Positions 40,259 through 59,929 of a DNA stretch of 64,000 nt are shown here, one piece after another. Source of the stretch: Actinocorallia sp. API 0066 (lineage in GTDB: Bacteria > Actinomycetota > Actinomycetes > Streptosporangiales > Streptosporangiaceae); contig NZ_JAJLQY010000007.1 of assembly GCF_020991275.1 (NCBI RefSeq), forward strand, positions 186,001-250,000, in the 5' to 3' direction. The notes below the pieces were generated by a model. The model searched no databases. It saw nothing but the letters and a program-made list of their open reading frames with translations, and had not been told where the DNA came from. Every line of letters begins with the position of its first letter. The first letter of the stretch is position 1. Made by a program: the position numbers and the translations under genes.

Positions 40259-40262
40259 CGGC

Positions 40263-40268
40263 TAGGCT
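40263..40268 (+). promoter_or_regulatory. -10 element of the leaderless tetR transcript
   Basis: TAGGCT ends 7 nt before the ATG at 40276. Confidence 0.5.
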
Positions 40269-40275
40269 GGGGGAC

Positions 40276-40893: not shown

Positions 40894-40948
40894 CGTGCGG
40901 GTCCCCGAGTTATCCACAGGGCCGGATCCGGAACGCGCGCGGGACGGG

Positions 40949-40954
40949 TAGCGT
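40949..40954 (+). promoter_or_regulatory. -10 element of the leaderless M50 protease gene
   Basis: TAGCGT ends 7 nt before the GTG at 40962. Confidence 0.5.
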
Positions 40955-40961
40955 TCGGCTC

Positions 40962-41765: not shown

Positions 41766-42014
41766 CGCCTCCGCCCCCGCCCGTCCCGCTTATCCCTCCC
41801 GTCCTATCCGCCCCACCCGCCCTGTCCACCCCATCTGTCACATATGTCCCGCTCGTCCCATCCGGCACGGGGGTTTCGGCCCGGGCGGGTTGGTCATGCC
41901 AAGGTTACGGGCGGGTAAGCGAAAGGTCTCGTTCCGTGGCCCGGCGCACTGGACGTCTCCCAAAAAGGTGATTAGCGTCACCTGTGGACACTCCGGCGGA
42001 AGGAAGCCACACGC

Positions 42015-42401: not shown

Positions 42402-43395
42402 CCGTTTCGCGGAGCCTCGGCAGCACTTCCCCGCCGAGGCTCCGCACCGTTTCGGCGACCCGCCCGGCGTCCGCCGAGCACTCCACGAGCAGCACCACCC
42501 GTCCCACGTCGGGCAGGGCGCAGGCCCGCGCCAACGCCTCCGCGCAGTCCTCCGCCGTGCCGACGGCGTGCATCCCGGCGAGCTCCGCCGCGTACTCGGC
42601 GGCGTCCCTGACGTGCCGGGGCCGCCCGTCCACCGGCACGTAGCCCGCGAGGCCGGGCCCCATCCAGCGCGGCAACTCCTCGGTGACGGTCCGCCGCGCC
42701 TCCTCCCGCGTCCGGCCCACCCACGCGACGCCCGTCGTGACGTGCCCGGCGCGCGGCGGCCCGCCGAACTCCCGGTACCTGCCGACGGCAGCCGCCTTCT
42801 CCGCGTCGCCGACGTGCATGCCGAGCAGCATCGGCAGGCCACGTTCGGCCGCGAGCCGCTCGGACGCCGGGCTCGTCGCGGCGAGGAACACCGGGGGCGG
42901 CGTCTCGGGCCGTGGCAGCAACGGCACCTCGCGGAACCGGAAGAACGCCCCGTCGGCCGCCACAGAGCCCCCGCCGTCCAGGGAGGCGAGCAGGAGGTCC
43001 AGGGACTCCGGAAAACCCGTCTCGTAGCGGCTCAGGCCCGTCCCGAGCACCTCCAGCTCGCGCCACGGCCCGCCCCTGCCCACCCCGAGCAGGAACCGGC
43101 CGGGCGCCAGCGACGCCAGGAGCCGCGCCTCCTCGGCCAGCGCGACCGGATGCCGCGACGGCAGCACCGCGACGGCGGTGCCCACCGCGATCCGTGACGT
43201 CGCCGCCAGCAGGTGCCCGGCCAGCACCGTCGCGGACGGGCACACGCCGTAGGTCATGAAGTGGTGCTCGGCGAGCCACACCTCGTCAAAACCGGCGTCC
43301 TCGGCGGCGCGGGCGAGCGCGACGGTGCGGGCGAGGGCGGTGGTGGAGGACTGGCCGGGCCACTGCCCGGCGGGGAGGAAGAGTCCGAAGCGCAT
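42370..43395 (-). CDS. LLM-class flavin-dependent oxidoreductase
   Basis: 341 residues, luciferase-like TIM barrel using FMN or F420. It begins MRFGLFLPAGQ; typical stretches are ARAAEDAGFDEVWLAEHHF, RIAVGTAVAVLPSRHPVALA and RFLLGVGRGGPWRELEVLGT. The substrate cannot be inferred. It is single and convergent with the SCO5389-like gene, and its start faces the hydroxyacyl-CoA dehydrogenase gene. Confidence 0.92.
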   Translation of the reverse strand: MRFGLFLPAGQWPGQSSTTALARTVALARAAEDAGFDEVWLAEHHFMTYGVCPSATVLAGHLLAATSRIAVGTAVAVLPSRHPVALAEEARLLASLAPGRFLLGVGRGGPWRELEVLGTGLSRYETGFPESLDLLLASLDGGGSVAADGAFFRFREVPLLPRPETPPPVFLAATSPASERLAAERGLPMLLGMHVGDAEKAAAVGRYREFGGPPRAGHVTTGVAWVGRTREEARRTVTEELPRWMGPGLAGYVPVDGRPRHVRDAAEYAAELAGMHAVGTAEDCAEALARACALPDVGRVVLLVECSADAGRVAETVRSLGGEVLPRLRETVSSRAGAAAG

Positions 43396-43466
43396 GGTCC
43401 CTTGCCTTCCCCGGGAAGGGCGTCTGGGAGACTTTCTCCCAGGCGCTGTCGAGAAGAGGAACGGTT

Positions 43467-44525
43467 ATGGCTTTCGGCAAGGTGGGCGTGGTAGGGCTCG
43501 GCACCATGGGCGCGGGCATCGCCGAGGTGCTGGCGCGCGGCGGGATCGACACCGTCGGCATCGAGGTGAACGAGGCGGCGCTGGAACGCGGCCGGACCAC
43601 CGTGGAGAACTCGACGGCGCGCGCGGTGACCCGGGGCAGGCTCACCGAGGAGGCGCGTGAGCAGATCCTCGGCCGGTTGACGTTCAGCACCGACTTCACC
43701 GACCTGGGCGACCGCGACCTGGTGATCGAGGCGGTGCCGGAGCTGATCGACCTCAAGGCGAAGGTCTTCGCCCAGTTGGACAAGGTGTGCCGTCCCGACG
43801 CGGTGCTGGCGACCAACACCTCGTCCCTCTCGGTGACGGAGATCGCGGGCGCCACGACCCGGCCCGAGTCCCTCGTGGGTGTGCACTTCTTCAACCCGGC
43901 CGTGGTGATGAAGCTTGTGGAGATCATCTACAGCGAGCGGTCGCGGCCCGAGCACGTCGAGGCCGTGACGTCGTTCGTGCGCGACCTCGGCAAGGTGCCC
44001 GTGACGATCGGCGACCGGGCCGGGTTCGTCGCGAACCGGCTGCTGTTCGGGCTGCTCGGCCCGGCCGCCCAGCTCGCCGAGACGGGCGTCGCCAAGGAGG
44101 ACATCGACGCCTCCCTCAAGGAACTCGGCCTGCCCATGGGCCCGCTCACGCTGATGGACCTCATCGGCCTGGACACCTGCCTTGAGGTGTTGGAGTCCAT
44201 CCACGCCGACTCCGGGTCGCCCCGCCACGAGCCCGCCGGGCTGCTGCGCAAGCTGGTGAGCGAGGGGTCGCTCGGCCGCAAGTCCGGTGGCGGCTTCTAC
44301 ACCTACGACCGGGCGGGCTCCGGCACCGTCGTCGCGCCCGTCGAGGGCACCGCGTCGGCGGAGGTCGCCGAGCAGCTCTACGGCCCGTACCTCCAGGACG
44401 CCGCCGAGATGGTGAAGAGCGGCTACTGCACCGCCGACGACGCCGACGCCGCGATGACGCTCGGCTGCGGCTTCCCCGTCGGCCCGATCGCCGCCCTGCG
44501 CGAACGCGGCACGTGGCAGGACTGA
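43467..44525 (+). CDS. 3-hydroxyacyl-CoA (3-hydroxybutyryl-CoA) dehydrogenase
   Basis: 352 residues, longer than the usual ~285. NAD motif GVVGLGTMGAGIAEVLARGG; catalytic region VGVHFFNPAVVMKLVEII; C-terminal domain with AGFVANRLLFGLLGPAAQLA, ending at GRKSGGGFYTYD. A further ~65 residues (AAEMVKSGYCTADDADAAM, PVGPIAAL) resemble part of a second C-terminal domain, as in duplicated multifunctional forms. It reduces acetoacetyl-CoA or oxidises 3-hydroxyacyl-CoA and fits with the thiolase at 50 kb. Confidence 0.92.
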   Translation: MAFGKVGVVGLGTMGAGIAEVLARGGIDTVGIEVNEAALERGRTTVENSTARAVTRGRLTEEAREQILGRLTFSTDFTDLGDRDLVIEAVPELIDLKAKVFAQLDKVCRPDAVLATNTSSLSVTEIAGATTRPESLVGVHFFNPAVVMKLVEIIYSERSRPEHVEAVTSFVRDLGKVPVTIGDRAGFVANRLLFGLLGPAAQLAETGVAKEDIDASLKELGLPMGPLTLMDLIGLDTCLEVLESIHADSGSPRHEPAGLLRKLVSEGSLGRKSGGGFYTYDRAGSGTVVAPVEGTASAEVAEQLYGPYLQDAAEMVKSGYCTADDADAAMTLGCGFPVGPIAALRERGTWQD

Positions 44526-44536
44526 CGACCGACGCT

Positions 44537-44542
44537 TAGGCT
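44537..44542 (+). promoter_or_regulatory. -10 element of leaderless gene 44550
   Basis: TAGGCT ends 7 nt before the ATG at 44550. Confidence 0.5.
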
Positions 44543-44549
44543 CGAACCC

Positions 44550-44828
44550 ATGGCCCGCAAGAACAGGCGGGACGACGGCGGCGCCCGTCCCCTGTCGTCC
44601 TTCGGCGTGCAGGAGACCCGGAGCGAACCGGACGGCGAGTGGCACGTGCGCACCGTCTCGGCGGCTGCGGCGGTCAAGAGCTACCGGTGTCCCGGGTGTG
44701 AGCAGCTCATCCCGCCCGGGACCCCGCACCTCGTCACCTGGCCCGCCGACCGTGGCGGCCCCGACGACCGCCGCCACTGGCACCGGCCCTGCTGGGCGTC
44801 CCGCCTGCACAGAAGACCCAGAAGGTGA
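44550..44828 (+). CDS. Small basic protein with zinc-ribbon-like cysteines
   Basis: 92 residues. The central CPGCEQLIPPGTPHLV and C-terminal HWHRPCW place two Cys, one His and another Cys as in small treble-clef or ribbon zinc sites. The N- and C-termini are rich in Arg. It resembles the short proteins found before an alpha/beta hydrolase in Streptomyces. The next gene starts 1 nt after the stop, so they are co-transcribed. The actual function is unknown. Confidence 0.75.
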   Translation: MARKNRRDDGGARPLSSFGVQETRSEPDGEWHVRTVSAAAAVKSYRCPGCEQLIPPGTPHLVTWPADRGGPDDRRHWHRPCWASRLHRRPRR

Positions 44829-44829
44829 C

Positions 44830-45540
44830 ATGACCACGGAGATCAGGGCGGCCACGGTGTTGGCGGCGCGGCGGCAGGACGTCGTGCTGCACACGTCGGA
44901 CGGGCTGGAGTTGGTGGGGGAACTGGCGCTCCCGGCGGACCGGGAGCCGGTGGCCACGCTCGTCTGCCTGCATCCGCTGCCCACGCACGGCGGGATGATG
45001 GACAGCCACGTGCTGCGCAAGGCGTCCTACCGGCTGCCCGCGCTGGCGGGGCTCGCCGTGCTGCGGTTCAACACACGCGGCACGACGTCGGAGCGCGGGA
45101 CGTCACAGGGCGCGTTCGAGGAGGGCGAGGGGGAGCGGTTCGACGTCGCGGCGGCGCTGGAGTTCGCCGAGTACCACGACCTGCCCCGGGTGTGGCTCGT
45201 CGGCTGGTCGTTCGGCACCGAACTCGCGCTCAAGTGGGGGCTCGACCCCTCGGTGGAGGGCGCGATCCTGCTGTCGCCGCCGCTGCACCGCGCCACCGAC
45301 ACCGACCTGGACGCCTGGGCCGCCGACGGCCGCCCGCTCGTCGCCCTCGTGCCGGAGCTGGACGACTACCTGCGCCCGGCCGAGGCCGTCCAACGGTTCG
45401 CGCGGGTGCCGCGAGCCGAGGTCGTCGGGGTGCCGGGGGCCAAGCACCTGTGGGTGGGCGAGCCGTCCGTGCGGATCGTGCTCAACGAGATCGTCCAGCG
45501 GGTCGTGCCGGAGGCGTGGCCGCTGCCCGTCTCCGTCTGA
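44830..45540 (+). CDS. Alpha/beta hydrolase
   Basis: 236 residues. Nucleophile elbow GWSFGTELALKWG, oxyanion region LVCLHPLPTHGGMMD, and a C-terminal VPGAKHLWVGEP with the catalytic His. It resembles the small hydrolases that act on short peptides or esters. Start MTTEIRAATVL is preceded by AGAAGGTGAC and follows directly on the zinc-ribbon gene. Confidence 0.88.
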   Translation: MTTEIRAATVLAARRQDVVLHTSDGLELVGELALPADREPVATLVCLHPLPTHGGMMDSHVLRKASYRLPALAGLAVLRFNTRGTTSERGTSQGAFEEGEGERFDVAAALEFAEYHDLPRVWLVGWSFGTELALKWGLDPSVEGAILLSPPLHRATDTDLDAWAADGRPLVALVPELDDYLRPAEAVQRFARVPRAEVVGVPGAKHLWVGEPSVRIVLNEIVQRVVPEAWPLPVSV

Positions 45541-45657
45541 CGGCTCCGCTTCCGGGCGTCCCCGGTGACCGTAGACGGCCACGCCGTGGTGGGTGTGTGG
45601 TCTTGAGGGTACGGAAGGGGGGATTGAACCGTTTCAAGGAGACCTAAGGGGAAACTG

Positions 45658-46449
45658 ATGCAGTTGTACGCACGGGACGTCGGCCGCGGCACTCCGCTCG
45701 TACTGCTGCACGCGTTCCCGCTGTCGTCGTCGATGTGGCTGCCGCAGCGCGAGGCGCTCGCCGGCCGGTTCCGGGTGATCACCCCCGATCTGCGCGGGTT
45801 CGGCGGCTCGGTGCTGGGCGACGTCGAACCGTCCGTGGAGACGATGGCGGACGACGTCGCGGCGCTGCTGAAGTCCAAGAACATCCCGCGCGCCGTCATC
45901 GGCGGGCTCTCGATGGGCGGGTATGTCGCGATGGCGCTGTGCCGCCGCCACCCCGACCGGGTGCGCGGCCTCGTCCTCGCCGACACCAAGATGACCGCCG
46001 ACACCGACGCCGCCCGCGCCAACCGGCTGCGGATGGCCGACCGGCTCGGCCGCGACCGCGACGTCCGCCCGCTGCTCACCGACGTGCTGCCGCACCTCGT
46101 CGGGCCGACGACGATGCGCCAGCGGGCCCTCGTCTACGGCAGGATCCGGGGCCTCGTCCAGGCCACGCCGCCCGCCGCCGCCGCGTGGGCGCAACGCGCG
46201 ATGGCGGCCCGGCCCGACAGCACCGACACGCTGAAGGCGGTGAAGGCGCCGACCCTCGTCATCGTCGGCGACGAGGACGGCGTCACGACCGAAGCCGACG
46301 CCCGCGCCATGACCGAGGTGCTACCGAACGCCGAACTACACGTCATCCCGCGCGCGGGCCACCTCACGTCGATCGAGCAGCCCGACCTGTTCAACCAGTC
46401 CGTCGCGGACTTCGTGTCGGCCGTCGCGCGGGCCACCCCCGCCGCCTGA
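45658..46449 (+). CDS. Alpha/beta fold hydrolase
   Basis: 263 residues. The oxyanion motif LVLLHAFPLSSSMW, nucleophile elbow IGGLSMGGYVAMAL, acid in VIVGDEDGVTTEADAR and catalytic His in IPRAGHLTSIEQP are all present, so the enzyme should be active. AAGGAGACCTAAGGGGAAAC precedes the ATG. The substrate is unknown (esterase/3-oxoadipate enol-lactonase-like). A strong hairpin follows. Confidence 0.9.
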   Translation: MQLYARDVGRGTPLVLLHAFPLSSSMWLPQREALAGRFRVITPDLRGFGGSVLGDVEPSVETMADDVAALLKSKNIPRAVIGGLSMGGYVAMALCRRHPDRVRGLVLADTKMTADTDAARANRLRMADRLGRDRDVRPLLTDVLPHLVGPTTMRQRALVYGRIRGLVQATPPAAAAWAQRAMAARPDSTDTLKAVKAPTLVIVGDEDGVTTEADARAMTEVLPNAELHVIPRAGHLTSIEQPDLFNQSVADFVSAVARATPAA

Positions 46450-46452
46450 ACC

Positions 46453-46487
46453 CCCGGCGGCCCGCCGGCGCGCGGCGGGCCGCCGGG
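46453..46487. terminator. Bidirectional terminator
   Basis: A perfect 15-bp stem (CCCGGCGGCCCGCCG with its complement, 5-nt loop) lies exactly between two convergent genes that end at 46449 and 46491. Confidence 0.8.
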
Positions 46488-46490
46488 CCC

Positions 46491-47768
46491 CTAACGGGCG
46501 TCCTGCCGTGGGTGCACGACCTCGCGGATGATGAGCGAGATGGCCGCGGCCACCGGGATGGCCAGCAGCGCGCCCGTGATGCCCATGAGGCTGCCGCCGA
46601 TGAGCGCGGCGATGACCGTGACGACGGGCTGCACGTTCACCGACCGCTGCATGATCCGCGGGTAGATGAAGTAGTTCTCCACCTGCTGGTACAGCACAAA
46701 GAAGATGCCGCAGGCGATGCCCTCGGGCACCCCGGTGAGGAACCCGACGAGCGTGACGATGGTGCCGCCGATCGTCGCGCCGACCATCGGGATCAGGCCG
46801 GTCAGCCCCACGATGAGCGCGAGCACCGCCGCGTAGGGCACCCCGACGATGCTGAGGAAGATGTAGGTGGTGACGCTGGCGATGAGCGTGATGGTCGCCG
46901 CGCCGGAGACGTAGCCGCCGATCTGGTCGAGGATCTCGTCGCCGAGCAGGGCGACGCGGGCGCGGCGGGTGCGCGGCGTGAACCGGTAGAAGAAGTTCTT
47001 CATCTGCGGCAGCGCGGCCAGGAAGTACAGGGTGAGGATCAGCACCGTGAAGGTGTTGAAGATCGCCGACAGCGCGCCCTTGCCGAGGTTCAGCGCCCAG
47101 TCCGCGACGCTGGCCTGGAAGTTGGACTCCAGCAGCTTCTGCCGCGCCGTCTCCAGCAGGTTGTAGCGCTGGTCGAACTCGGCGATCCGCTGGTTCTGCT
47201 GGAGTTGGACGATGTACTCGGGCACGTGCTCGGCGAACTTGCTGATCTCGTTGACGACGGGCGGCACGACGGCCCAACCGACCCCGGTGAAGAACAGCAC
47301 GACCGCCAGGAACACCACGGTGACCGCTTTGCCGCGCGACAGCCCGACCTGCACGAGCCGCTCGACGGCCGGGTTCAGCCCGACCGCGAGGAACAGCGAG
47401 ACCGTCAGCAGGATCAGCACCTGCACGACGTCGAGGACCGCCTGGACGAGCAGCCACGCGCAGATGCCGCCGAGCACCGCGGTGAACCCGAAGACGAACG
47501 GGGAGCGGGTCAGCGGACGGCCTGGCGTGCCGAACGGGAGCAGGTCGGTGACGCCCGCCTCGCGGTGCCGCTGGCTCAGGTCGGTGAGCGGGTCGGGGGA
47601 GATCCGCGGCGTGGGGTCGGCGCCGCGCGGCAGCGGCACCGGGTGCGCCGCCTCCGGTTCCGGGCCTACGACGGACGCGGGCGGGTCCACCACGGTGCCC
47701 TTGTCGCCGATGTCACCCGGGTCCGGCGCCGCACCTTCGGGCGGGGGGGTCGGGGTCGAGTCCTGCAT
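46491..47768 (-). CDS. AI-2E family transporter (PerM/YdiK-type membrane protein)
   Basis: 425 residues. The first ~110 residues are a Pro/Asp-rich cytoplasmic region; eight hydrophobic segments follow (SPFVFGFTAVLGGICAWLLV, ILLTVSLFLAVGLNP and so on), with the family pattern LALIVGLTGLIPMVGATIGG and GIFFVLYQQVENYFIYPRIM. Family members have been linked to export of AI-2 or to sodium/proton transport. GAGGAG before the ATG at 47768 fixes the start. Confidence 0.9.
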   Translation of the reverse strand: MQDSTPTPPPEGAAPDPGDIGDKGTVVDPPASVVGPEPEAAHPVPLPRGADPTPRISPDPLTDLSQRHREAGVTDLLPFGTPGRPLTRSPFVFGFTAVLGGICAWLLVQAVLDVVQVLILLTVSLFLAVGLNPAVERLVQVGLSRGKAVTVVFLAVVLFFTGVGWAVVPPVVNEISKFAEHVPEYIVQLQQNQRIAEFDQRYNLLETARQKLLESNFQASVADWALNLGKGALSAIFNTFTVLILTLYFLAALPQMKNFFYRFTPRTRRARVALLGDEILDQIGGYVSGAATITLIASVTTYIFLSIVGVPYAAVLALIVGLTGLIPMVGATIGGTIVTLVGFLTGVPEGIACGIFFVLYQQVENYFIYPRIMQRSVNVQPVVTVIAALIGGSLMGITGALLAIPVAAAISLIIREVVHPRQDAR

Positions 47769-47821
47769 GCCCACTCCTCACAGCCTGACGACGAACTGAC
47801 GTCCCATAGATAGACGACGAA

Positions 47822-50073: not shown

Positions 50074-51249
50074 ATGTCTTCAGTGATCGTCGCGGGTGCC
50101 AGGACGCCCATCGGGCGCCTCCAGGGCTCCCTGAAGGACTTTAGCGCCACCGACCTGGGCGGACTGGCGATCAAGGCGGCCCTGGAGCGGGCCGGAGTGG
50201 CGCCCGACGCCGTCCAGTACGTGATCATGGGGCAGGTGCTCCAGGCGGGCACCGGGCAGATCCCGGCGCGGCAGGCCGCCGTCAAGGCGGGCGTGCCGAT
50301 GACCGTCCCGGCGCTGACCGTCAACAAGGTGTGCCTGTCCGGCCTGGACGCGATCGCGCTCGCCGACCAGCTCATCCGCGCGGGCGAGTTCGACATCGTC
50401 GTCGCGGGCGGCATGGAGTCGATGACGAACGCGCCGCACCTGCTGCCGAAGTCGCGCGCGGGCTACAAGTACGGCTCCGTCGAGGTCCTCGACCACATGG
50501 CCCACGACGGCCTCACCGACGCGTTCGACGCGATCCCGATGGGCGAGTCCACCGAGCGCGTCAACGCCCGGCTGGGGCTCACCCGGGAGGCGCAGGACGA
50601 GTTCTCGGCGCGCTCCCACCAGCGCGCGGCCGCCGCGATCAAGAACGGGCTGCTCGCGGACGAGATCGTGCCCGTCGAGATCCCCGTCCGCCGGGGCGAG
50701 CCCGTCGTCTTCAGGGACGACGAGGGCGTGCGCGCCGACACCACCGCCGAGTCGCTGGCCCGGCTGCGCCCCGCGTTCGCCAAGGACGGCACGATCACCG
50801 CCGGTTCGTCCTCGCAGATCTCCGACGGGGCAGCGGCGGTCGTCGTCATGTCCAGGGCCAAGGCGGAGGAGCTGGGGCTGACCTGGCTCGCCGAGATCGT
50901 CGCGCACGGGAACGTCGCGGGGCCGGACAACTCGCTGCACTCCCAGCCGTCCCGGGCGATCGAGCACGCGCTCGGCAAGGCGGGCCTTTCGGTCGGCGAC
51001 CTCGACCTCGTCGAGATCAACGAGGCGTTCGCCGCGGTCGGCGTCCAGTCCTCGGCCGACCTCGGGCTCGACGGCGACATCGTCAACGTCAACGGCGGCG
51101 CCATCGCGCTCGGCCACCCGATCGGCATGTCCGGCGCCCGGATCGTGCTCGCCCTCGCGCACGAGCTGAAGCGGCGCGGCGGCGGCACCGGCGCGGCCGC
51201 CCTGTGCGGCGGCGGCGGCCAGGGCGACGCCCTGATCGTCAAGGTCTGA
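50074..51249 (+). CDS. Acetyl-CoA C-acetyltransferase (thiolase)
   Basis: 391 residues. It condenses two acetyl-CoA or cleaves acetoacetyl-CoA. Active-site Cys in [12 protein letters not shown], His in [16 protein letters not shown] and the second Cys in [10 protein letters not shown] are all present. I chose the ATG at 50074 ([14 protein letters not shown]), the family start. Divergent from mce; with the dehydrogenase at 43.5 kb it supplies 3-hydroxybutyryl-CoA and the ethylmalonyl-CoA route. A strong terminator follows. Confidence 0.96.
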
Positions 51250-51258
51250 GGACGGCAG

Positions 51259-51290
51259 GAGGGCGCGGCCCGTCAGCGGGCCGCGCCCTC
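51259..51290. terminator. Bidirectional terminator after thiolase
   Basis: A perfect 14-bp stem (GAGGGCGCGGCCCG, TCAG loop) 9 nt past the thiolase stop. It also faces the end of the lanthipeptide operon at 51332 and marks the edge of that cluster. Confidence 0.85.
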
Positions 51291-51331
51291 GCGCGTCGTC
51301 TGGCGGCGCTAGCCGGCTGACATCGTCTACC

Positions 51332-52450
51332 TCACGCTCGTGATGGCTTTCGTCCGAACAGCACGCGAAGCCGATGTTCTGCCGTGCGGACAGACGCGTC
51401 GAGGGTGTCCCTGTGGCTGGCTGGCAGGGTCTTTACGCCGAGGAATGCGGTGGCAACCACTGCGGCGAGGTGTTCTTCCTGCCAGATCCTCATCTGGCTG
51501 CGCAGATGGGGTTGGTCCAAGACGTCGCGGGCGGCGTAGGCGTCGGTGGCGGCCACGTCGAAGAGGGCGTCACGCAGGTTCATGGTGTGGCCTGTGCTGG
51601 ATGGCAGGTCGAGCGCGGTCTGGGCCAAGCGGACCCGGAACACTGCGGTCATCGGGTCGGGCTGCTTCACCAGCGTGAGGGTCTCCTGCATTGTGCGGTC
51701 CACAGCCTTCTGTGAGGAGGAGGCTTCTGGCCGAATCGTCTGGAGGAGGAGCGCAGCGACGGTGCTCTCCCAAGGCTCGGTGGGGATGGTGGACTCGATG
51801 GTCGCAATGGCCTCGTCGGTCTGGCTCTTTTCCAGGAGGGACATGATCTTGATTTGGCGGCCGTCGAGGAGCCGGTTGCCGATGCCGCGGTGTGCCGCCA
51901 TCGCTTGGGCGGCTTCGGTCCAGCGGCCTTGCCGGGTGAGGGCTCGGGCGCCGTCGATGAGCAGGGTGATCCACAGTTCGGTGCAGATCTTCTTGTGGTG
52001 GTCGGTGGTTGGTGTCCAGGGGGCGAGGTCAACGGTGTGGCCGCGGATGCTGGTAGTGCCGCGTGCTTGGGCGGCGCGATAGAGCCTTTGGAGGACGTCG
52101 TAGGCGGCGTCGCCATCGCCTTCGCGGATGAGGAGTCGTGCGATGTTCACGATCGGCATGAGCCCCATGACGGCGATGTCAGGCTCCAGGTGTTCGGCTT
52201 CGGCGAAGATGGCGTGTTGTCTCCAGCAGAGGTCGGTGGCCAGGTCGGGCAGGCCGGTGTCGGAGGCGATGAGGGCGGCGAAGTTGAGGGTTCCGCAGGC
52301 GCGGGCCACCTGGTCGTGGTGGCTCGCGCCCGGGATTTGAGTGGTGAGCGCGGTGAGGTCGGCGATGCGGGTGCCGAGTGGAGTCCCGGGCGGTTTGGTG
52401 CGGCAGACCAGCGGGATGCGGGCTGCGATCGCGGGGTCCATCGCGCTCAC
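51332..52450 (-). CDS. Helical (TPR-like) protein, last gene of the lanthipeptide operon
   Basis: 372 residues, soluble, all-helical by pattern. Repeated helix pairs (CGTLNFAALIASDTGLPDLA, AAYDVLQRLYRAAQARG, ALTRQGRWTEAAQAMAAHRG) resemble the tetratricopeptide part of actinomycete XRE regulators, but there is no DNA-binding domain. The GTG at 52450 lies 6 nt after the stop of the methyltransferase gene, so it is translationally coupled; an ATG at 52441 is an alternative. Its role in peptide maturation, regulation or immunity is unknown. Confidence 0.7.
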   Translation of the reverse strand: MSAMDPAIAARIPLVCRTKPPGTPLGTRIADLTALTTQIPGASHHDQVARACGTLNFAALIASDTGLPDLATDLCWRQHAIFAEAEHLEPDIAVMGLMPIVNIARLLIREGDGDAAYDVLQRLYRAAQARGTTSIRGHTVDLAPWTPTTDHHKKICTELWITLLIDGARALTRQGRWTEAAQAMAAHRGIGNRLLDGRQIKIMSLLEKSQTDEAIATIESTIPTEPWESTVAALLLQTIRPEASSSQKAVDRTMQETLTLVKQPDPMTAVFRVRLAQTALDLPSSTGHTMNLRDALFDVAATDAYAARDVLDQPHLRSQMRIWQEEHLAAVVATAFLGVKTLPASHRDTLDASVRTAEHRLRVLFGRKPSRA

Positions 52451-52456
52451 CGTCTT

Positions 52457-54505
52457 CTACCGCCAGTCGATGACGAGGCGGCTGAGGGGCTTGTCGATGA
52501 TGAACCGCGGGTCGGTGGCGGTGAGCAGGTCGCGGTGGGCGGCTGTGGCCATCCGGAAGCCGGGTTCGGGGGCGTCGTTGCCGTAGTCGCGGTCCCATTC
52601 GCTGATCGCTGCGCTGACCTGGTCGGCGAGGACAGCGGCGCCGGGGCCGTGGCCGATGATGCCGATCTCCCAGTACCGGCCGTCGTGGTCTTCGCCTTCG
52701 CGGATGGTCAGGTAGGCCAGGCTGTCGCCGTCCAGGGCGGCTATGGAGCCCCAGCCGAAATGCGGGGTGAATCCGGGCCGCCGGCCCGGCATCCGGGACA
52801 GGCCGTTGGGCAGGACGCACGCGAGCCACAGGTAGACCCACTGCCAGGGGGAGCCCTGACGGAACTTCACGCCGGTGTAGACCTTGTGGGAGGGCTGGTC
52901 GAGGATGGTGCGCATCGCCTCGCGGTCCACCTGCTGCTCAGTGAAGGTCTCCAGGCGGACGTCGCCTTCACCGTCGTGGTGGATGAGGGTGGAGACGTCG
53001 TCGCAGATGCCCTTGCGCAGTGGCACGAACGATGCCATCTCGCAGGAGACGACCTTCCACGTCTGGCCGTCGGCGCGTTCGAAGGCGAAGCTGCGGGAGA
53101 TGCTGCCGCGGATGCGCATCGGGATGACCAGCCGCCCTCCCGGGGCGAGTTGCTCCAAGACGGCGGGCGGGATGTCCGCGGCGCTCACGGTGAACTGGAT
53201 GCGGTCGTAGGGCCCGTGCTCGGGGAGTCCGGTCGCGCCGTCGGCCAGCAGTACGGAGATGTTGCCGGCGCCGGAGGCCGCCACGCGGGCGGCGGCGTGG
53301 CCGACGAGGTCGTCGTCGACGTCGACCGTCCACACGTGTCCGCCGGGAGCGACCACGCGGCCGAGGAGCGCGGCGTTGTAGCCGGTGGCGGCACCGGCCT
53401 CCAGGACGTTGTGGCCGGGCCTGGCGCCGAGCTGCTCCAGCTGGGTGGCCACGATGGACGGGGCGGAGATGCAGGAGATCATCTCGCCGTGGTCGTCGTG
53501 CTTGATCGGGACCGCGTCATCGGCGTAGGCGGCCTCGATGCCGGCGTCGGGGATGAACGTGTGCCGCTCGACGGTGCGGAACGCTTCGATGATCTCGGGC
53601 GTGCGCAGGTGACCCGAGGAGGTCAGCGTGGTCGCCAGAGCGTCGCGGAGCTCGGCGGGGTCGGTGGTCGAGGTGATGGTGGACTCCATGTGGTCGAGGT
53701 TATGGGCGGGGGGTGTGGCGGGGCCGGTGAACACGGCGGTGCCTGGCTCGTCGTCGAAAGACGCATGGCGGCCGAGCCACGCGAGTGCCGCCTGCTCGTT
53801 CGGCGGGACGCCTGCCCGGTTCAGCGCGAAGATCGCATGGTGGGTGAGAACCGCACGCGACCCCCGCGTCAGGACGCCGCTCGCAGCGAGCCGGGCCACG
53901 TCGCGCCCGGTCGTGTGGAACGCTTCGACGCGCTCAGCCCAGCCGGGCTCTGCGTTCTCGCGCTGGGCGGCATCGGCGTGCATCAGGCGCCGCATCCCGG
54001 CGATGGCCGCGGCGCGGGACGCCGGGTCGTGGGGCGCGTCGATCCGAGGGCGGAGCGCGGCCAGGCGCGCCCACACATCGCCGATCTCGAAGGGGTCGAG
54101 GCCGGCGGCCCGGTGCATGGTCGACAGCAGCAGGACAGTCCGCTCCCGCGCTCGGGGGTCGCCGGTCTCGGCTAGGGCGGCCGGGCTGTCGGCGCAGAAC
54201 AGGTCGTGTGCCAGCGCCATGCCGTCCGGGCCGCCGAAGGCGTCGGTCTCGGGTTCGTACACTCCGCTGACCCAGTGGGCGGCGAGCCCGGTGGTGACGA
54301 GGTCGTCGAGGATCTCGCCTACGGGATGTTCGGTGCGCAGCCGGACCTTTCCCTCCTTGCGCAGGAAGTGCCAGCGCTGCCCTTCCAGCTTCTCCCTCAG
54401 CACGGTCGCGGTCTTCGCCTCCACTCCCTGGTCGCCGAAGGAGATGGTGGCCTGGTTCCACTGCGGGGTTTCGGAGGCCGGAAGGTTCTCGTCGTTCCAG
54501 TCCAT
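52457..54505 (-). CDS. FxLD-system methyltransferase fused to a SpaB_C-like elimination domain
   Basis: 682 residues. Residues ~10-260 resemble the C-terminal (SpaB_C/thiopeptide-type) domain of lantibiotic dehydratases: QATISFGDQGVEAKTATVLR, WHFLRKEGKVRLRTEHPVGE and THHAIFALNRAGVPPNEQA. Residues ~275-460 are a protein-L-isoaspartate-type methyltransferase with SAM motif NVLEAGAATGYNAALLG and PGGRLVIPM. The remaining ~220 residues are the family's C-terminal part. I infer that the first domain removes glutamate to form dehydro-residues and the second methylates an Asp of the peptide, giving isoaspartate or a succinimide, as known for other lanthipeptide PIMTs. The ATG at 54505 lies 39 nt from lanC. 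Confidence 0.85.
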   Translation of the reverse strand: MDWNDENLPASETPQWNQATISFGDQGVEAKTATVLREKLEGQRWHFLRKEGKVRLRTEHPVGEILDDLVTTGLAAHWVSGVYEPETDAFGGPDGMALAHDLFCADSPAALAETGDPRARERTVLLLSTMHRAAGLDPFEIGDVWARLAALRPRIDAPHDPASRAAAIAGMRRLMHADAAQRENAEPGWAERVEAFHTTGRDVARLAASGVLTRGSRAVLTHHAIFALNRAGVPPNEQAALAWLGRHASFDDEPGTAVFTGPATPPAHNLDHMESTITSTTDPAELRDALATTLTSSGHLRTPEIIEAFRTVERHTFIPDAGIEAAYADDAVPIKHDDHGEMISCISAPSIVATQLEQLGARPGHNVLEAGAATGYNAALLGRVVAPGGHVWTVDVDDDLVGHAAARVAASGAGNISVLLADGATGLPEHGPYDRIQFTVSAADIPPAVLEQLAPGGRLVIPMRIRGSISRSFAFERADGQTWKVVSCEMASFVPLRKGICDDVSTLIHHDGEGDVRLETFTEQQVDREAMRTILDQPSHKVYTGVKFRQGSPWQWVYLWLACVLPNGLSRMPGRRPGFTPHFGWGSIAALDGDSLAYLTIREGEDHDGRYWEIGIIGHGPGAAVLADQVSAAISEWDRDYGNDAPEPGFRMATAAHRDLLTATDPRFIIDKPLSRLVIDWR

Positions 54506-54544
54506 CGTGTCGGGTCGCTCCTGCTCGGCTCGGAGGTGAACGGG

Positions 54545-55612
54545 TCAGGTGATCAGCAGGGCGCGGGTCCAGCCGGTGACGTCGGTCCCCTCCAGCGCCA
54601 ACCGTGCGCCCGCGCGGCCTTCGAGGAAGCCCGGTCTAGGGAGGCTGTCGATCCCCGCGCCGACATGCTCGGCGAGCTGGTCCAGGTGGCCGGTGTAGCG
54701 GTCGCCGTCTGCGCTGTCGGCGGCGATGGCCCGGGTGAGGGCCAGGAGTCCGGCCCACCCGTGGCACAGCGACGCATCGGTGATCAAACCCATTCGGGTC
54801 TGGTCGTCCAGTACGGCTGCCGCGGCATCCTCAGCCGATCGGGCGCGTGCTGGATCATCGGTAGCGAGCGCTGCCAGTTGCAGGGTGCGGGCGATCCCGA
54901 GGTCTCCGTAGCACCACGACGGGCGCCTCGCCGGGTTCGGCCACGCAGTGGTGGAGCCGAGTTGCTCTCGGGTGGTCCAGTAGCCGCCGCGGCACTCCAG
55001 CCAATCGGCGAACGTACCGATCGCGTCCCGTTGGCCGGGAACCTCGATGTCGTGGCGTGTAGCCAGAGCGAGCAGGGCGAGCGGTCCGGCGATGCCGTGC
55101 GCCATCCCGTTATTGGCGTGCCCACCGGGCATCTCTTCATGCCCCGGGCCTGCTGGGCACCACCATCCCGGCACGGAAGGATCTGTGGCCGGCGGGGCGG
55201 CCAGGTGCGTCAGCTCGGTCAGCACGCCGTGGAGCTGAGGGGCGCCGGGGCGGGACAGGAGCACCGTCCCCAGGCCGGTCAGCCCTTGGATGAGGTCGAA
55301 CTCCGCCAGGTGCGGTAGCCGTCCCTGTTCTCTGCGGCGGGCGGCAGCCGCGATGCGGGCGGCCACGATCCGGTCAACGGCGGCGGTGACCGCTCGCCCT
55401 GCGCGGCTCCTGCGGCCGAGGACGAACTCTAGCGCGGGGGCTCCGTGGAACAGGCCCGCGTTCGCGCCGGCGCTGACGCCACCTGCGACCGCCTCAGCCA
55501 GCAGAGGCCGAGCTGCGGCGAGGTCGCCGCGTTCCAGGTGCAGCAGCGCCACGCCGAGACCCTGCTCAGCCAGCGCCTGCGTCTTCGGTGGCTTCGTTGA
55601 CGTGGTGGTCAT
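54545..55612 (-). CDS. lanC: Lanthionine synthetase C-type cyclase
   Basis: 355 residues, alpha/alpha toroid. It catalyses addition of Cys thiols to dehydroalanine/dehydrobutyrine to make lanthionine rings. The zinc ligands are visible: Cys in SWCYGDLGIARTLQL and Cys-His in ASLCHGWAGLLALTRA; the conserved His of GMAHGIAGPLALLAL is also present. The start overlaps the dehydratase stop by 4 nt. Length is slightly short for LanC (~400). Confidence 0.92.
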   Translation of the reverse strand: MTTTSTKPPKTQALAEQGLGVALLHLERGDLAAARPLLAEAVAGGVSAGANAGLFHGAPALEFVLGRRSRAGRAVTAAVDRIVAARIAAAARRREQGRLPHLAEFDLIQGLTGLGTVLLSRPGAPQLHGVLTELTHLAAPPATDPSVPGWWCPAGPGHEEMPGGHANNGMAHGIAGPLALLALATRHDIEVPGQRDAIGTFADWLECRGGYWTTREQLGSTTAWPNPARRPSWCYGDLGIARTLQLAALATDDPARARSAEDAAAAVLDDQTRMGLITDASLCHGWAGLLALTRAIAADSADGDRYTGHLDQLAEHVGAGIDSLPRPGFLEGRAGARLALEGTDVTGWTRALLIT

Positions 55613-57672
55613 GGCAGGGCCTCCACCGCTTGGACGATGCTGTGCGCCCGTCCGCCGATCCAGCCGTTCGCGTCCGGCGGCGGCGCCTCGTGGAGCACAG
55701 CGACGGGATACCTTCCCAGGTGGGTGCGAAGCAGGTCCATGCCCAGGTCTTGGGAGAGGTCGAGGAGAAGGTGCTGGTCGTCCAGCGCGAGGAGGACGCG
55801 CTCAGGCACCCTGGCCCTTCTCCGCCAGGCGTGCAGATGCGCAGCCCACTCCGACAGCGGTGTCCGCCGACCGATCCGGCTGCTTGAACTCGCCAGGGTT
55901 CGCTCACGCAGCTGCCAGCGGGCGGCGACCAGGACAGATCGCCGGTAGCGCACCGCCGGGGTGAACGGCAGCGTCCACGCTGCTCCCCAGTCGAACCACG
56001 TCATCTGCGGCACCGAGGCACGGCTGAGCTCGGCGAGGAACCGGACCAGCGGCGGCGTGAAGTTGTTCCACACGAAGTTGATCGCCGTCGGGACCAGGAG
56101 TTCCAGCCGGACGCCCGTCTCGGCCACCACGAGGTACAGGTGGCCGTTCTCCATGCCGACGGCGAGATCGGCGGGACGCAGCACCTTCTCGTCGCTTCCT
56201 CGGAACTCACCCACGCTCACCACATCACCCAGCACCTGCGGCGCGCGGGTGAGCAGATCGGCCGCCAGCCGACTGGAGTGGAACGACAGCTGTGCCGGCC
56301 TAGCCCCGGCGGTCACAGTGGGCAAGCTGGTGTGCCCGTCGGCGGCACCGGGGAACAGGTGCCAGAACCGGCCCGTCATCGTCCCGGCGGCCCGAGAGAC
56401 CGTGTGCACGCGCAGCCGGAAATCACCACGATCCAAGGCGGGAATCGACGGCGCATCGACCTGCGCGCACACTTCGAAATGCGGCGCCCGAGCAGTCGGC
56501 GGGCCACCCGCAGCCGCCTCCAGCTCCTCGATCACCGCCTCGGACAGCACCACCTCCCGACGGCCCTCCAACGCCGCGCCTCCCGCCAGATCCAGCAGCA
56601 ACCGGTCGCGGCGTGACATCGGCCGAGGCGGCTCAGACGCCGCGCCGAAGCCGTCCGGCATCCCCAAGCCCGTGTCCGGATCGGTCAACTGAAGCAAGGA
56701 GACCTCGACGCCCTCACCGAACCGGTCCGCGAACGCCTCCAGATAACGGCGCCACGGCCCCGTTCCCTGCGGGCACGTCGACAGCCGGGCCAGCACCGTT
56801 GCGGCCGTCTCCACCTCGACAGCCACCGATTCAGGCAACCGCACCAGGGCGTCCAGCCGCACGTCCGTGAACCTCCGGTCCGCACCGCCCAGCACGTCGG
56901 CATCCGCCACCACAGCGGCTGGCAGAACGGATGCCGGGTCAACGACCGTCGCCGGGGCGCGCAGACCCGAACGCAGCAAACCGACACGCAGCAGCTCAGC
57001 CACCAGACCGGCCCTGTCCGCTTCGCTGGTAGTGGGGAAATCGGCGGCGAGCTTTCCCAGCAAGGCTGGGTAAGAGATCGGCGAGGAAGCTACCTCCACG
57101 ACCAACCCAACAGCGGCCGTCAGCGGCATCGAGAACTCCGCGGTTCCCTCAGCCGGAATGCGCACCCGGCCACCGTCGATCCGCGCCAGGGTGTTCACGC
57201 ACACCTCGACGTCGGCCAGCACCGCCGGGTCCGCCTCACCTGCTCTGACCAGGGAGTCCAACCACGCCGGGTCATGTCGATCGACGATCTCGTGCGCCTG
57301 CCCGAAACGCACCTTTGCCCGTTCTCCGAACTCGGCGAGTGCGACGCCGGCGAACAGCCCGAAAGGGGTGGAACGGTGGGCGTAGCGGATGGCGTACCGG
57401 GCGACGGCAAGCGCCGCCCGGCGCGCCCGACGGGTTTCCATCTGCCGACCGGACAGGATCGCATCGACTTGGCGCGCCAGGTCAGGGCTCGCGGAAGAGA
57501 TCGTCCGCTGGAACTCCTCATCCCCCCAGACCGGACCCAGCCAGAGGCGCCACTGGTCCGTCGTGGCACCTGGAGCAGGCCAAGCCGGGACTTCGAGGCC
57601 GCGGCAATTCACCGTGGCCCGCAGCATCGGTGGACCGGTGCGCCGGTACTGTCTGCGCCGCGAGCGGGTCAT
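55609..57672 (-). CDS. lanB: Lantibiotic dehydratase, glutamylation part only
   Basis: 687 residues. It matches the N-terminal (Lant_dehydr_N) part of class I LanB, which glutamylates Ser/Thr from glutamyl-tRNA. The diagnostic RYAIRYAHRSTPFGLFAGVA lies near residue 105, and the C-terminal region shows VVAETGVRLELLVPTAINF and LLALDDQHLLLDLSQDLGM. Full-length LanB is ~1000 residues; the missing elimination domain appears to be on the methyltransferase protein of the same operon. The ATG at 57672 is 58 nt after the precursor stop. Confidence 0.92.
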   Translation of the reverse strand: MTRSRRRQYRRTGPPMLRATVNCRGLEVPAWPAPGATTDQWRLWLGPVWGDEEFQRTISSASPDLARQVDAILSGRQMETRRARRAALAVARYAIRYAHRSTPFGLFAGVALAEFGERAKVRFGQAHEIVDRHDPAWLDSLVRAGEADPAVLADVEVCVNTLARIDGGRVRIPAEGTAEFSMPLTAAVGLVVEVASSPISYPALLGKLAADFPTTSEADRAGLVAELLRVGLLRSGLRAPATVVDPASVLPAAVVADADVLGGADRRFTDVRLDALVRLPESVAVEVETAATVLARLSTCPQGTGPWRRYLEAFADRFGEGVEVSLLQLTDPDTGLGMPDGFGAASEPPRPMSRRDRLLLDLAGGAALEGRREVVLSEAVIEELEAAAGGPPTARAPHFEVCAQVDAPSIPALDRGDFRLRVHTVSRAAGTMTGRFWHLFPGAADGHTSLPTVTAGARPAQLSFHSSRLAADLLTRAPQVLGDVVSVGEFRGSDEKVLRPADLAVGMENGHLYLVVAETGVRLELLVPTAINFVWNNFTPPLVRFLAELSRASVPQMTWFDWGAAWTLPFTPAVRYRRSVLVAARWQLRERTLASSSSRIGRRTPLSEWAAHLHAWRRRARVPERVLLALDDQHLLLDLSQDLGMDLLRTHLGRYPVAVLHEAPPPDANGWIGGRAHSIVQAVEALP

Positions 57673-57730
57673 CTGGCACTCCGATCCATGAGGCGGGCCT
57701 GGGACGATCAGCGGTATGCCGCAGCGCCGT

Positions 57731-57919
57731 CTAGGACGTCGTGCAGGCGCTCGGGCAGGAGCTTCCGCACGTGTCGTTCGTGCTGCACATCAGGATCGTG
57801 TCGGCGGCCGGGGTGTCCTCGATGAAGGTGATGTCGAGGCCGAACGGGTCGAAGTCCACCGCGGCGCCGTCCGCAGCGGTGTCGGCGGCGGACTGCTGGT
57901 CGATCGTCGGGGTGCTCAT
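57731..57919 (-). CDS. lanA: FxLD-family lanthipeptide precursor
   Basis: 62 residues. The leader (1 to ~40) is acidic and Ala-rich and contains FDPFGLDITFIED, with the FxLD signature at residues 26-29 (F-G-L-D). The core (from ~41) starts TILMCSTNDTCG and has four Cys at 45, 51, 55 and 59, with ten Ser/Thr as possible dehydration sites. Asn48-Asp49 lies between the first two Cys, a fitting target for the PIMT domain. AAGGAG is 9 nt before the ATG at 57919; the longer frame has no ribosome site. No protease or exporter gene is adjacent. Confidence 0.9.
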   Translation of the reverse strand: MSTPTIDQQSAADTAADGAAVDFDPFGLDITFIEDTPAADTILMCSTNDTCGSSCPSACTTS

Positions 57920-58053
57920 AGTGCTCTGCTCCTTCGCTGAGCCCTGCGCGGGGCTAGTGCTCCGCACACGTGTCGTTACGGTCCGGGTCAGCACAAGTGA
58001 ACGACGGCTCAGTCTCCGGCCGCTATGGTCGGAGGCGTCCCGAAGGGTTTATT

Positions 58054-58065
58054 CGGTTTAAACCG
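58054..58065. promoter_or_regulatory. Perfect 12-bp palindrome before the cluster regulator
   Basis: CGGTTTAAACCG lies 12 nt before the start of the regulator gene, overlapping its leader and ribosome site. AT-rich and symmetric, it is a good candidate for the regulator's own operator. A second palindrome ACACGTGT (57966-57973) lies nearer the precursor promoter. Confidence 0.5.
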
Positions 58066-58077
58066 GGTGGGAATCTG

Positions 58078-59439
58078 ATGCCACGGGCACCTGGCGAGCG
58101 CGTCCCCAATCTTCGACTCCGCGAAGCGATAGCAGAGGCCGGCCTGAGCTACGACGGTGTGGCACGCGCCGTGGTCCGCGTCGCGGCCGAACACGGCGAG
58201 GTACTCCGAACCAACAAATCGACCATCGCGCACTGGGTCTCGGGCACCGCCCCCGTCGAACGCACAGCCCACTACCTGGCCGAAGCCCTGTCACGCCGAA
58301 CCCGGCGTCCGATCACCCTCGCGCAGCTCGGCCTCACCACAGACAGCAGCCCGCAGCGGACCGGAACGCACCCCGTCGAAACGGCCACCCTCCTCGGCCG
58401 CGCCGACGTCGAGCACCGCGGGTATCTGGCCGCGGCGGTCTACACCGCCTCCGACGTCGCTATGCCGCTGGACTACGACCCCGAGCCGGTCTCACGACTC
58501 CTGCGGGCCCGCACCGGGAGTTCACGCGTCGGCCCCGAGGAGATCACCGTTGTCCGCCACATCACCCGAGCGTTCGGCGCCGCCGACGAACTCCTCGGCG
58601 GTGGGCACGGCCTGTCCACCGTCGCGACCTATCTCGCAGACACCGCAGCACCACTTCTGACCGGCCGGTTCGCCAATGGCGACACCCGCAGCGACGCCTA
58701 CGCCGCCGTATCCGAACTGGCGTGGCTACTGGGCTGGAAACACCACGATCTCGGCCAAGAAGGCGCAGCCCAGAAGTACTACCTGCTCGGGTACCAACTC
58801 GCGGTCGAAGCCGACCCGAACGCACACGCCGCCTGGATGATGCGCGCCATCGCGCACCAAGCCCTCAGCCTGAAAGAGCACGGGCACAGCCGTGACCTCA
58901 TCCAAGCCGCGCTCAAACGGGCGAAAGGCCACGCCGACGGCGCCACCGAAGCGCTCCTCCACATCACCCACGCCCGAGCCCACGCCGCACTCGGCAACCG
59001 GTCCTCCGCCGCAGAGGCGCTTTTGGACGCCGAAGACGCCCTCACCCGCGACGACGAACCGCAACCGAGTTACTCCCTGCTGATGGGGCCGGCCGCCGGA
59101 ACCGTCGACTCCCACACCGCCCGGACCCTCACCGAACTCGGTGACCACCTCGGCACAGAGCAGCGGCACCGGGCTGCCTTCTCCTCCTGGGACCTGGAGG
59201 CGTTCCCGCGAGTCCATCTCCTCACCCACATGGATCTCGGCGACTGCCTGGCCGCCCAGGCCCGCGCCGACGAAGCCATCGCAGCGTGGAGCAGCGCCCT
59301 GGACCTGGCCGAAGGCATGGCCTCAGCCCGCACCCGGTCGGCATTCACCTCCATCCGCCACACCCTCGCCCTCTACCAGCGCCGCAAGGTCCCAGGTGCC
59401 GCGCTTCTCGCGCAGCGAATCCGGCAAACCGCCTTCTGA
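58078..59439 (+). CDS. HTH regulator with TPR-like domain
   Basis: 453 residues. The N-terminal ~75 residues form a helix-turn-helix variant (NLRLREAIAEAGLSYDGVAR, KSTIAHWVSGTAPVER) as in large actinomycete XRE proteins; the rest is a string of helix pairs (AAVSELAWLLGWKHHDLGQE, ARAHAALGNRSSAAEALLDA) resembling TPRs. The ATG at 58078 is preceded by GGTGGGA. It diverges from the lanthipeptide operon and is the obvious candidate regulator. The Nudix gene starts 13 nt downstream. Confidence 0.82.
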   Translation: MPRAPGERVPNLRLREAIAEAGLSYDGVARAVVRVAAEHGEVLRTNKSTIAHWVSGTAPVERTAHYLAEALSRRTRRPITLAQLGLTTDSSPQRTGTHPVETATLLGRADVEHRGYLAAAVYTASDVAMPLDYDPEPVSRLLRARTGSSRVGPEEITVVRHITRAFGAADELLGGGHGLSTVATYLADTAAPLLTGRFANGDTRSDAYAAVSELAWLLGWKHHDLGQEGAAQKYYLLGYQLAVEADPNAHAAWMMRAIAHQALSLKEHGHSRDLIQAALKRAKGHADGATEALLHITHARAHAALGNRSSAAEALLDAEDALTRDDEPQPSYSLLMGPAAGTVDSHTARTLTELGDHLGTEQRHRAAFSSWDLEAFPRVHLLTHMDLGDCLAAQARADEAIAAWSSALDLAEGMASARTRSAFTSIRHTLALYQRRKVPGAALLAQRIRQTAF

Positions 59440-59440
59440 T

Positions 59441-59446
59441 TAGGAT
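59441..59446 (+). promoter_or_regulatory. -10-like element before the Nudix gene
   Basis: TAGGAT ends 6 nt before the GTG at 59453, so the gene may also be transcribed as a leaderless mRNA separate from the regulator. Confidence 0.35.
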
Positions 59447-59452
59447 CGAGCC

Positions 59453-59929
59453 GTGAACGACAACGCTCTACCACCGGCGCTGGACTCCCACACGCTCCTC
59501 GTCGCCGCCGTCATCGTCCACGACAAGACAACCGACCAAGTCCTGCTCCTCCAAAGAGCGCCCGGGGCCAAGTTCGCGGCGGGGCACTGGGACCTGCCCG
59601 TCGGCAAAGCCGACAGAGGCGAACTCATCACCGCAACCGCGGCCCGGGAGCTGAAAGAGGAAACCGGCCTGATCGTCGAGCCGGCCGACCTCACCATCGC
59701 GGGCATCATCCACGGCGCCTGGGGTGTCGAAGCCCCCAACGGGTTCCTCACCGTCGTCTTCGCCACCCACGCCTGGACCGGCGAAGCAACCAACAACGAA
59801 CCCCACAAGCATTCTCGCGTCGCCTGGACCGCGACAGACCACATCCCAACCGAGTTCGTGTCCACGACCCACACCGCTCTGACCCACTACCTCAGGAACG
59901 GACCGATGGTCTTCAGCGACGGCTTCTGA
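59453..59929 (+). CDS. Nudix hydrolase beside the lanthipeptide cluster
   Basis: 158 residues. Core strand TLLVAAVIVHDKTTDQVLLL and complete Nudix box (GKADRGELITATAARELKEE followed by TGLIV). It hydrolyses nucleoside-diphosphate-linked substrates; no specific substrate is visible. Its pairing with the HTH/TPR regulator is common in actinomycetes, so it may belong to a regulatory module rather than to peptide maturation. Confidence 0.87.
   Translation: MNDNALPPALDSHTLLVAAVIVHDKTTDQVLLLQRAPGAKFAAGHWDLPVGKADRGELITATAARELKEETGLIVEPADLTIAGIIHGAWGVEAPNGFLTVVFATHAWTGEATNNEPHKHSRVAWTATDHIPTEFVSTTHTALTHYLRNGPMVFSDGF

Follow-up and report, generated by a model that had tools for sequence, protein, structure and literature searches.

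A class I FxLD-type lanthipeptide operon of Actinocorallia sp. API 0066 with a short LanB and a lyase domain, syn-type by sequence, fused to the methyltransferase

The 64,000-nt stretch of Actinocorallia sp. API 0066 analysed here (contig NZ_JAJLQY010000007.1, positions 186,001 to 250,000; hereafter the window) carries a minus-strand operon at 51332-57919 that encodes, in this order, a precursor peptide, a LanB-type protein, a LanC protein, a fused lyase-methyltransferase and a helical protein. We propose that this operon specifies a class I pathway of the FxLD type in which the dehydratase is split and the operon's only lyase forms one protein with the tailoring methyltransferase, a reading to which we assign a probability of about 0.6. 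The FxLD class itself is known, and what the arrangement appears to add, judged from its genes, is a LanB half and the relocation of the lyase onto the methyltransferase.

A sequence-only reading had described the region as an FxLD cluster with all core maturation genes in one operon and with a regulator and a Nudix gene diverging from it. The layout of seven genes proved to be real, with five genes in the minus-strand operon and an NsdA-family regulator and a Nudix gene on the other side. The class assignment also held, as TIGR04363 fitted the precursor and TIGR04364 the methyltransferase, both above cut-off (30 and 320, respectively; scores in Table 1), while the same comparison with FxLD families failed for the dehydratase, which had no match to any NCBIfam model. 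The claim that all core maturation genes are present would be correct only if the fused domain carries out the elimination, as we propose.

The short LanB and the fused lyase domain

The 687-aa LanB gave a PF04738 match of 522.9 bits that reached the last position of the model, and no PF14028 match was found in it (both Pfam). The protein aligned to residues 90-773 of the 1115 residues of MibB. By sequence it is the glutamylation half alone, with the glutamyl-lyase (GL) half absent, and since the LanC gene overlaps the LanB stop codon there is no room for a lyase domain at that place. An assembly artefact was considered as the cause of the short form and rejected, as all 19 unbroken orthologues (window included) were short, at 673-687 aa; this count omits L035, where LanB lies in two open reading frames (ORFs), and L093, whose 659-aa ORF is possibly broken (loci are designated L throughout). 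The same gene set was present on an Embleya plasmid, with a LanB of 678 aa as calculated from coordinates. With LanC matching PF05147, the operon has both the PF04738 LanB and the PF05147 LanC by which a class I lanthipeptide gene set is recognized. Among 20 relatives of LanC, HGxxG and WCYG were found in all 20 and CHG in 18, and we take these three to be the motifs of the cyclase.

The 682-aa fused protein (whole gene at 52457-54505, minus strand) matched PF14028 (60.6 bits, residues 35-247) and TIGR03891 (112.6 bits, cut-off 48.45, residues 38-247) at its N terminus, and TIGR04364 (residues 284-681) and PF01135 at its C terminus. The extra N-terminal domain noted in the sequence-only reading is thus present and is a glutamyl lyase, by sequence the sole one in the operon. 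What had been called a LanB-like dehydratase is one for its glutamylation half, while the lyase domain sits on the methyltransferase.

Syn-lyases are distinguished from anti-lyases by a Lys in place of a Tyr of NisB and by a hydrophobic residue in place of Arg826 of NisB, and SptBb seems to lack the catalytic His of anti-lyases (PMC9486935 and PMC9011353). A profile of 18 relatives aligned with NisB and MibB placed Lys on the Tyr, kept the RxR pair and placed Ala on the Arg of 'ERYGG', the residues of the window being K50, R55, R57, E84 and A89. Position 50 was K in all 21 members of the window's clade, and position 89 was A in 19 and T in two. We then scored 106 loci, which were gathered through the window's own proteins and whose counts are therefore no census; two were not scorable, leaving 104. 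K50, R57 and E84 were each kept in 104/104, and position 89 was A in 94, T in six and V in four. By this signature, the fused lyase domain is of the syn type. A structure model of the fused protein was poor (mean pLDDT 53.2, pTM 0.32) and was not used.

Extra syn-lyases, stand-alone or fused to a methyltransferase, have been described for clusters whose dehydratase is full-length (PMC9486935). The coi cluster of Streptomyces coelicolor shares with the window an FxLD-type precursor, a LanC and a protein isoaspartate methyltransferase (PIMT) fused to a syn-lyase domain, and it has an extra gene of unknown function, CoiH, as the window has its helical protein; in contrast to the window, its full-length LanB has its own anti-lyase (PMC9486935). 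Compared with the coi peptide, that of the window has an extra Cys (C45) and a Ser (S54) that replaces one ring Thr. The olv cluster of Streptomyces olivaceus also has an FxLD-type precursor, a PIMT (which there converts Asp to isoaspartate, isoAsp) and an extra Cys, from which an extra N-terminal ring is expected in both systems, but its LanB is canonical and full-length and its methyltransferase has no lyase domain (PMC9486935, PMC13001092). The comparison with SapT (spt) and dmxorosin covers their enzymes. In both, the glutamylation and lyase halves are on separate polypeptides and one lanthionine (Lan) with three methyllanthionines (MeLan) is reported, including D-allo-L-MeLan in SapT (PMC9011353, PMC9890492, PMC11855644); their lyase is a protein of its own, no fused methyltransferase being mentioned in those descriptions, whereas that of the window is fused. 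No description of a GL-methyltransferase (GL-MT) fusion beside a short LanB was found in the open-access literature searched, a scope that leaves supplementary tables (e.g. Table S6 of PMC9486935) outside, and an open-access literature search for the core motif of the window's peptide gave no match.

The precursor, its predicted rings and the TPR-like protein

The core peptide hardly changes among the 20 precursors aligned, which come from distant actinobacteria. T41, C45, T47, D49, C51, S54, C55, C59 and T61 were the same in all 20, and S46, T50, S53 and T60 varied. Synonymous differences (pS) reached 0.46 and nonsynonymous ones (pN) 0.07 over the last 18 codons, as compared with 0.22 and 0.16 over the 12 leader codons before the core. 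The ring map was drawn from the descriptions of CoiA1 and OlvA in PMC9486935, with a coi-like precursor (L100) standing in for the CoiA1 sequence; this precursor has Thr and Cys at the spacings given there for CoiA1 (T43, C47, T50, C51, C55, T57), and its Thr/Cys spacing agrees with that of the window's precursor. By analogy with the published CoiA1 rings, rings T47-C51, S54-C59 and C55-T61 would be formed. In OlvA an extra Cys takes the place of an Asn of CoiA1 (PMC9486935); the L100 precursor has Asn two residues before the ring Thr, the window has C45 there, and T41 lies four residues before C45, on which basis we predict a fourth ring, T41-C45. D49 sits within the predicted ring T47-C51, which agrees with a published TxDGC motif (PMC10787088, PMC13001092), and is predicted to become aspartimide and isoAsp after methylation. 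In coi, (Z)-dehydrobutyrine (Dhb) at two sites is attributed to the full LanB, and (E)-Dhb at a single site to the syn-lyase (PMC9486935). As the operon of the window encodes no anti-lyase, all three Thr-derived rings would be expected to contain D-allo-L-MeLan and the Ser-derived ring Lan, so that the product should have one Lan and three MeLan.

The last gene of the operon encodes the 372-aa helical protein. No curated family matched it above cut-off, tetratricopeptide-repeat (TPR) models scoring below it. AlphaFold2 gave a helical-repeat model (pLDDT 87.2, pTM 0.84), and a fold search with this model returned one match at E <= 0.001 (TM-score 0.14), the others listed being mostly TPR or helical-repeat proteins that gave no functional clue. 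What the earlier reading called a helical protein of unknown role is a recurrent neighbour of syn-lyases. Relatives were found in at least 43 of 394 genomes of the class, a lower bound since five candidates per genome were scored. At 53 of the 59 TPR places in these genomes a syn-GL lay on the same strand within 4 kb, and in 54/54 pairs the GL was upstream of the TPR gene; five of the six remaining places were partial matches, and the sixth (G251, contig 881) starts at a contig end. GL followed by TPR formed a single ORF in three loci (L009, L128 and L135). The one in the window's own genome (L009:238-2181, minus strand, contig 23) is a 647-aa ORF with a syn-type GL and a TPR-like domain, and it adjoins a full LanB without the lyase Arg pair. 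In coi-like loci, L100 and L117 among them, the GL-MT fusion is followed by a TPR gene, and from this gene order CoiH probably belongs to the same family. Where the methyltransferase is a separate gene it is often found at the other end of the cluster, with the TPR gene after the GL (e.g. L095, L096 and L102). On our reading, the TPR-like protein works with the syn-lyase and would most likely be an adaptor. Kinship with the neighbouring NsdA-type regulator was examined and rejected (hhalign probability 0.3). Elsewhere in the genome, L145:7729-9659 (minus strand, contig 40) holds broken lyase and TPR pieces together with a LanC piece, and is apparently a decayed sister cluster.

Sequence shows which genes are present, the lack of the second LanB half, the type of the lyase, the conservation and the TPR-GL neighbourhood; the chemistry that follows is inferred. 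The LanB half would glutamylate Ser and Thr of the core from Glu-tRNA, a known activity of the LanB family. The N-terminal domain of the fused protein would remove the glutamate syn, as its signature suggests, turning Thr into (E)-Dhb and Ser into dehydroalanine. LanC would then add the four Cys, giving T41-C45, T47-C51, S54-C59 and C55-T61 by analogy with CoiA1 and OlvA, and all three MeLan would be D-allo-L, as in SapT. The C-terminal PIMT-like domain would methylate D49, leading to aspartimide and largely to isoAsp, as OlvSA suggests. The TPR-like protein would act with the syn-lyase, probably as an adaptor that presents the peptide or docks the lyase, and removal of the leader and, in the window, export would be left to genes outside the operon. 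More tentatively, and at somewhat less than even odds, we suggest that this is a widespread, near-invariant lanthipeptide made wholly via (E)-Dhb by one bifunctional lyase-methyltransferase, and that the TPR-like proteins are a new family that recruits or positions syn-lyases.

Points against the proposal and other readings

Several observations weigh against these proposals. For the lyase signature, R55 is not universal (R in 96/104, P in five, K in two and H in one), and the T found at position 89 in six loci is not hydrophobic. In addition, H222 and H223 are conserved near the place of the catalytic His of anti-lyases (21/21 and 20/21 in the clade, 80/106 and 88/106 over all loci), and since the alignment has a gap there, the loss of the anti-lyase base is not settled. 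Two further residues, S57 and S62, do not vary in the 20 precursors either, so the ring residues are not singled out by invariance alone, and the precursor of L093, which is outside the 20, lacks T61. Some syn-lyases have been suggested to prefer Thr, whereas S54 is a Ser, and CoiC failed to close all rings of CoiA1 dehydrated by the syn-lyase alone (PMC9486935), so that the LanC of the window's clade would have to differ. This failure on all-(E) CoiA1 and the conserved His pair would both suit a fused domain that eliminates in a non-syn manner or at selected sites only, giving ordinary DL- or LL-MeLan or a partly dehydrated product. We regard this as unlikely, given that the window has both published marks, Lys for Tyr and Ala for Arg. 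An anti-lyase could also be supplied in trans by a full-length LanB from elsewhere in the genome, giving mixed stereochemistry like that of mCoiA1: the genome has ten PF14028 matches, of which five fall at the end, or close to it, of an ORF of 934-1073 aa, and the full-length LanBs of L012 and L014 retain the canonical lyase residues, as does that of L010 for Tyr, RxR, Arg and His but not for Glu. However, these LanBs sit in other gene clusters, LanBs usually require their own leader peptide, and with the short form in every unbroken orthologue each host would need such a partner, which makes this reading decidedly improbable.

The role given to the TPR-like protein also meets exceptions. No TPR hit was obtained for 36 of 88 strong syn-GLs, and the hits of a wider TPR profile applied to all 36 neighbourhoods were weak or partial and confined to L151, L160, L166 and L180; five of the 36 (L156, L161, L169, L174 and L178) extend no more than 0.8 kb past the GL, too short for a judgement. 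The TPR gene adjoins 42/44 GL-MT fusions and 24/59 stand-alone GLs, leaving 35 of the latter without it, and the coi enzymes, including CoiSA(ED), are functional in Escherichia coli without CoiH (PMC9486935). The closer tie to the fusions and the activity without CoiH would fit a protein that serves the methyltransferase step, regulation or self-protection, and not elimination. Against such a role, the protein is fused to the GL and not to the methyltransferase in the three loci named above, it follows the GL where a separate methyltransferase lies at the other cluster end, and it has no detectable kinship with NsdA-type regulators, so we consider it somewhat unlikely and retain the TPR-like protein as the proposed lyase partner.

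Relatives, gene map and significance

Relatives of the fused protein were encoded at 24 loci in a scan of named genomes, in Frankia, Planomonospora, Nonomuraea, Sphaerisporangium, Sinosporangium, Actinomadura, Microbispora, Streptosporangium, Saccharopolyspora, Microtetraspora, Actinoallomurus and Streptoalloteichus. All five genes were in the same order at 19 of them, a recurrence greater than chance would give, with one gene split or fragmentary in three of the 19 (L033, L035 and L037); some of the five genes were missing from L041, L042, L046, L048 and L050, at least three of which lie at a contig end. The fused protein shares 80-84% identity with its counterparts in L027, L028 and L048 (two Frankia, and Actinoallomurus over a partial stretch) and 64-73% with the other named relatives. 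The Planomonospora and Microbispora records have the same family code as the window's genome, and because the close Frankia proteins lie under another one, horizontal transfer of the cluster is possible. The genome itself has seven TIGR04364 proteins and four TIGR04363 precursors above cut-off.

GL-MT fusions were carried by 44 of the 106 loci; the accompanying LanB was full in 17 and short in 23, and in four no LanB lay on the stretch available. The 23 comprise the 21 rows of the window's clade and the divergent L126 and L138, which stand apart on the LanB tree. The lyase Arg pair, which binds glutamate, was lost in 20/70 full LanBs beside a syn-GL (e.g. L009, L011, L102, L104, L137, L148 and L176). 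A link between TPR presence and lyase loss in LanB was rejected, the pair being lost in 9/41 such LanBs with TPR and 11/29 without. On the LanB tree (95 rows, a quick method, many weak forks) the lyase state must have changed three times or more. A Cys that precedes the ring Thr by two residues, and with it a predicted fourth ring, was found in 0/31 scored loci with the Arg pair intact, 16/18 with it lost and 20/23 with the domain absent; 34/106 loci were unscorable, L029 has the Cys and was missed by the pattern, and L175 is counted as lyase absent though its LanB is split between two ORFs, the second of which holds the lyase. On the tree, where the LanBs without the Arg pair fall mostly in one clade, two changes of the Cys stand beside three or more of the lyase and only one or two independent pairs exist, so the association is not established by the raw counts; the extra Cys of OlvA, found with a canonical LanB (PMC9486935), speaks against such a rule.

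Table 1. Features of the lanthipeptide operon and the diverging genes (positions in the window)
Feature	Position	Strand	Evidence
LanA, FxLD precursor, 62 aa	57731..57919	-	TIGR04363 53.9 bits; alignment of 20 precursors
LanB glutamylation half, 687 aa, without lyase domain	55609..57672	-	PF04738; no PF14028; MibB alignment
LanC cyclase, 355 aa	54545..55612	-	PF05147 87.6 bits; LanC motifs
GL domain of 682-aa fused protein, syn type by sequence	53720..54505	-	PF14028, TIGR03891, residue tests
PIMT-like O-methyltransferase domain of fused protein	52457..53656	-	TIGR04364 410.1 bits, PF01135 141.7 bits
TPR-like helical protein, 372 aa, proposed syn-lyase partner	51332..52450	-	AlphaFold2 model; gene neighbourhood
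Likely shared divergent promoter region	57920..58077	.	Between the two assigned divergent starts; inference
NsdA-family HTH/TPR-like regulator	58078..59439	+	NF053720 324.8 bits; start from relatives
Nudix hydrolase gene, pathway link uncertain	59453..59929	+	PF00293 69.4 bits; near cluster in L028, L044

The genes of the operon are closely spaced, with 58 bp between LanA and LanB, an overlap of 4 bp between LanB and LanC, 39 bp between LanC and the fused protein and 6 bp between the latter and the TPR gene. No sigma-70-like promoter and no terminator-like site were found in 51200-58300. The regulator belongs to the NsdA family (NF053720, cut-off 75), and a start at 58078 is more likely than one at 57970 because the alignment of the long ORF with its relatives in L027, L028 and L044 starts no earlier than residue 31 or 37. 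In these three loci the cluster is adjoined by a close relative of the regulator, and in L028 and L044 also by one of the Nudix protein (L027 is cut by a contig end).

In agreement with the sequence-only reading, no protease or exporter gene was recognized among the seven genes; beyond these, the scan covered only ten ORFs in 32164-47774. Minus-strand genes in that region encode an AdoHcyase-NAD-domain protein (32164-33513), two HTH/DUF5753 regulators (33541-34389 and 36199-37182), an MPAB/Lcp-type oxygenase (39330-40430), a luciferase-like monooxygenase (42370-43395) and an AI-2E-family transporter (46491-47774). Among 30 stretches searched, three have an ABC transporter gene after the TPR gene, namely L186 (Embleya, 11450-13384, with a Nudix gene between), L038 (Saccharopolyspora, 13398-15410) and L187 (Streptomyces, 10774-12771), and it is a candidate exporter there; a match in L028 is about 8 kb away, and the window has none.

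In class I lanthipeptides the lyase and the cyclase together set the stereochemistry of MeLan. With the anti-lyase removed, the operon offers a natural case in which to ask if a single syn-lyase is enough for every Thr and if LanC has adapted to it, and it gives a testable role to an uncharacterized gene that recurs beside syn-lyases. The conservation of the core over distant actinobacteria would fit a common target or an endogenous role better than an antibiotic shaped by an arms race. If the proposed pathway is true, the peptide, together with those of olv (anti only) and coi (mixed), would present one ring topology in three natural stereochemical forms.

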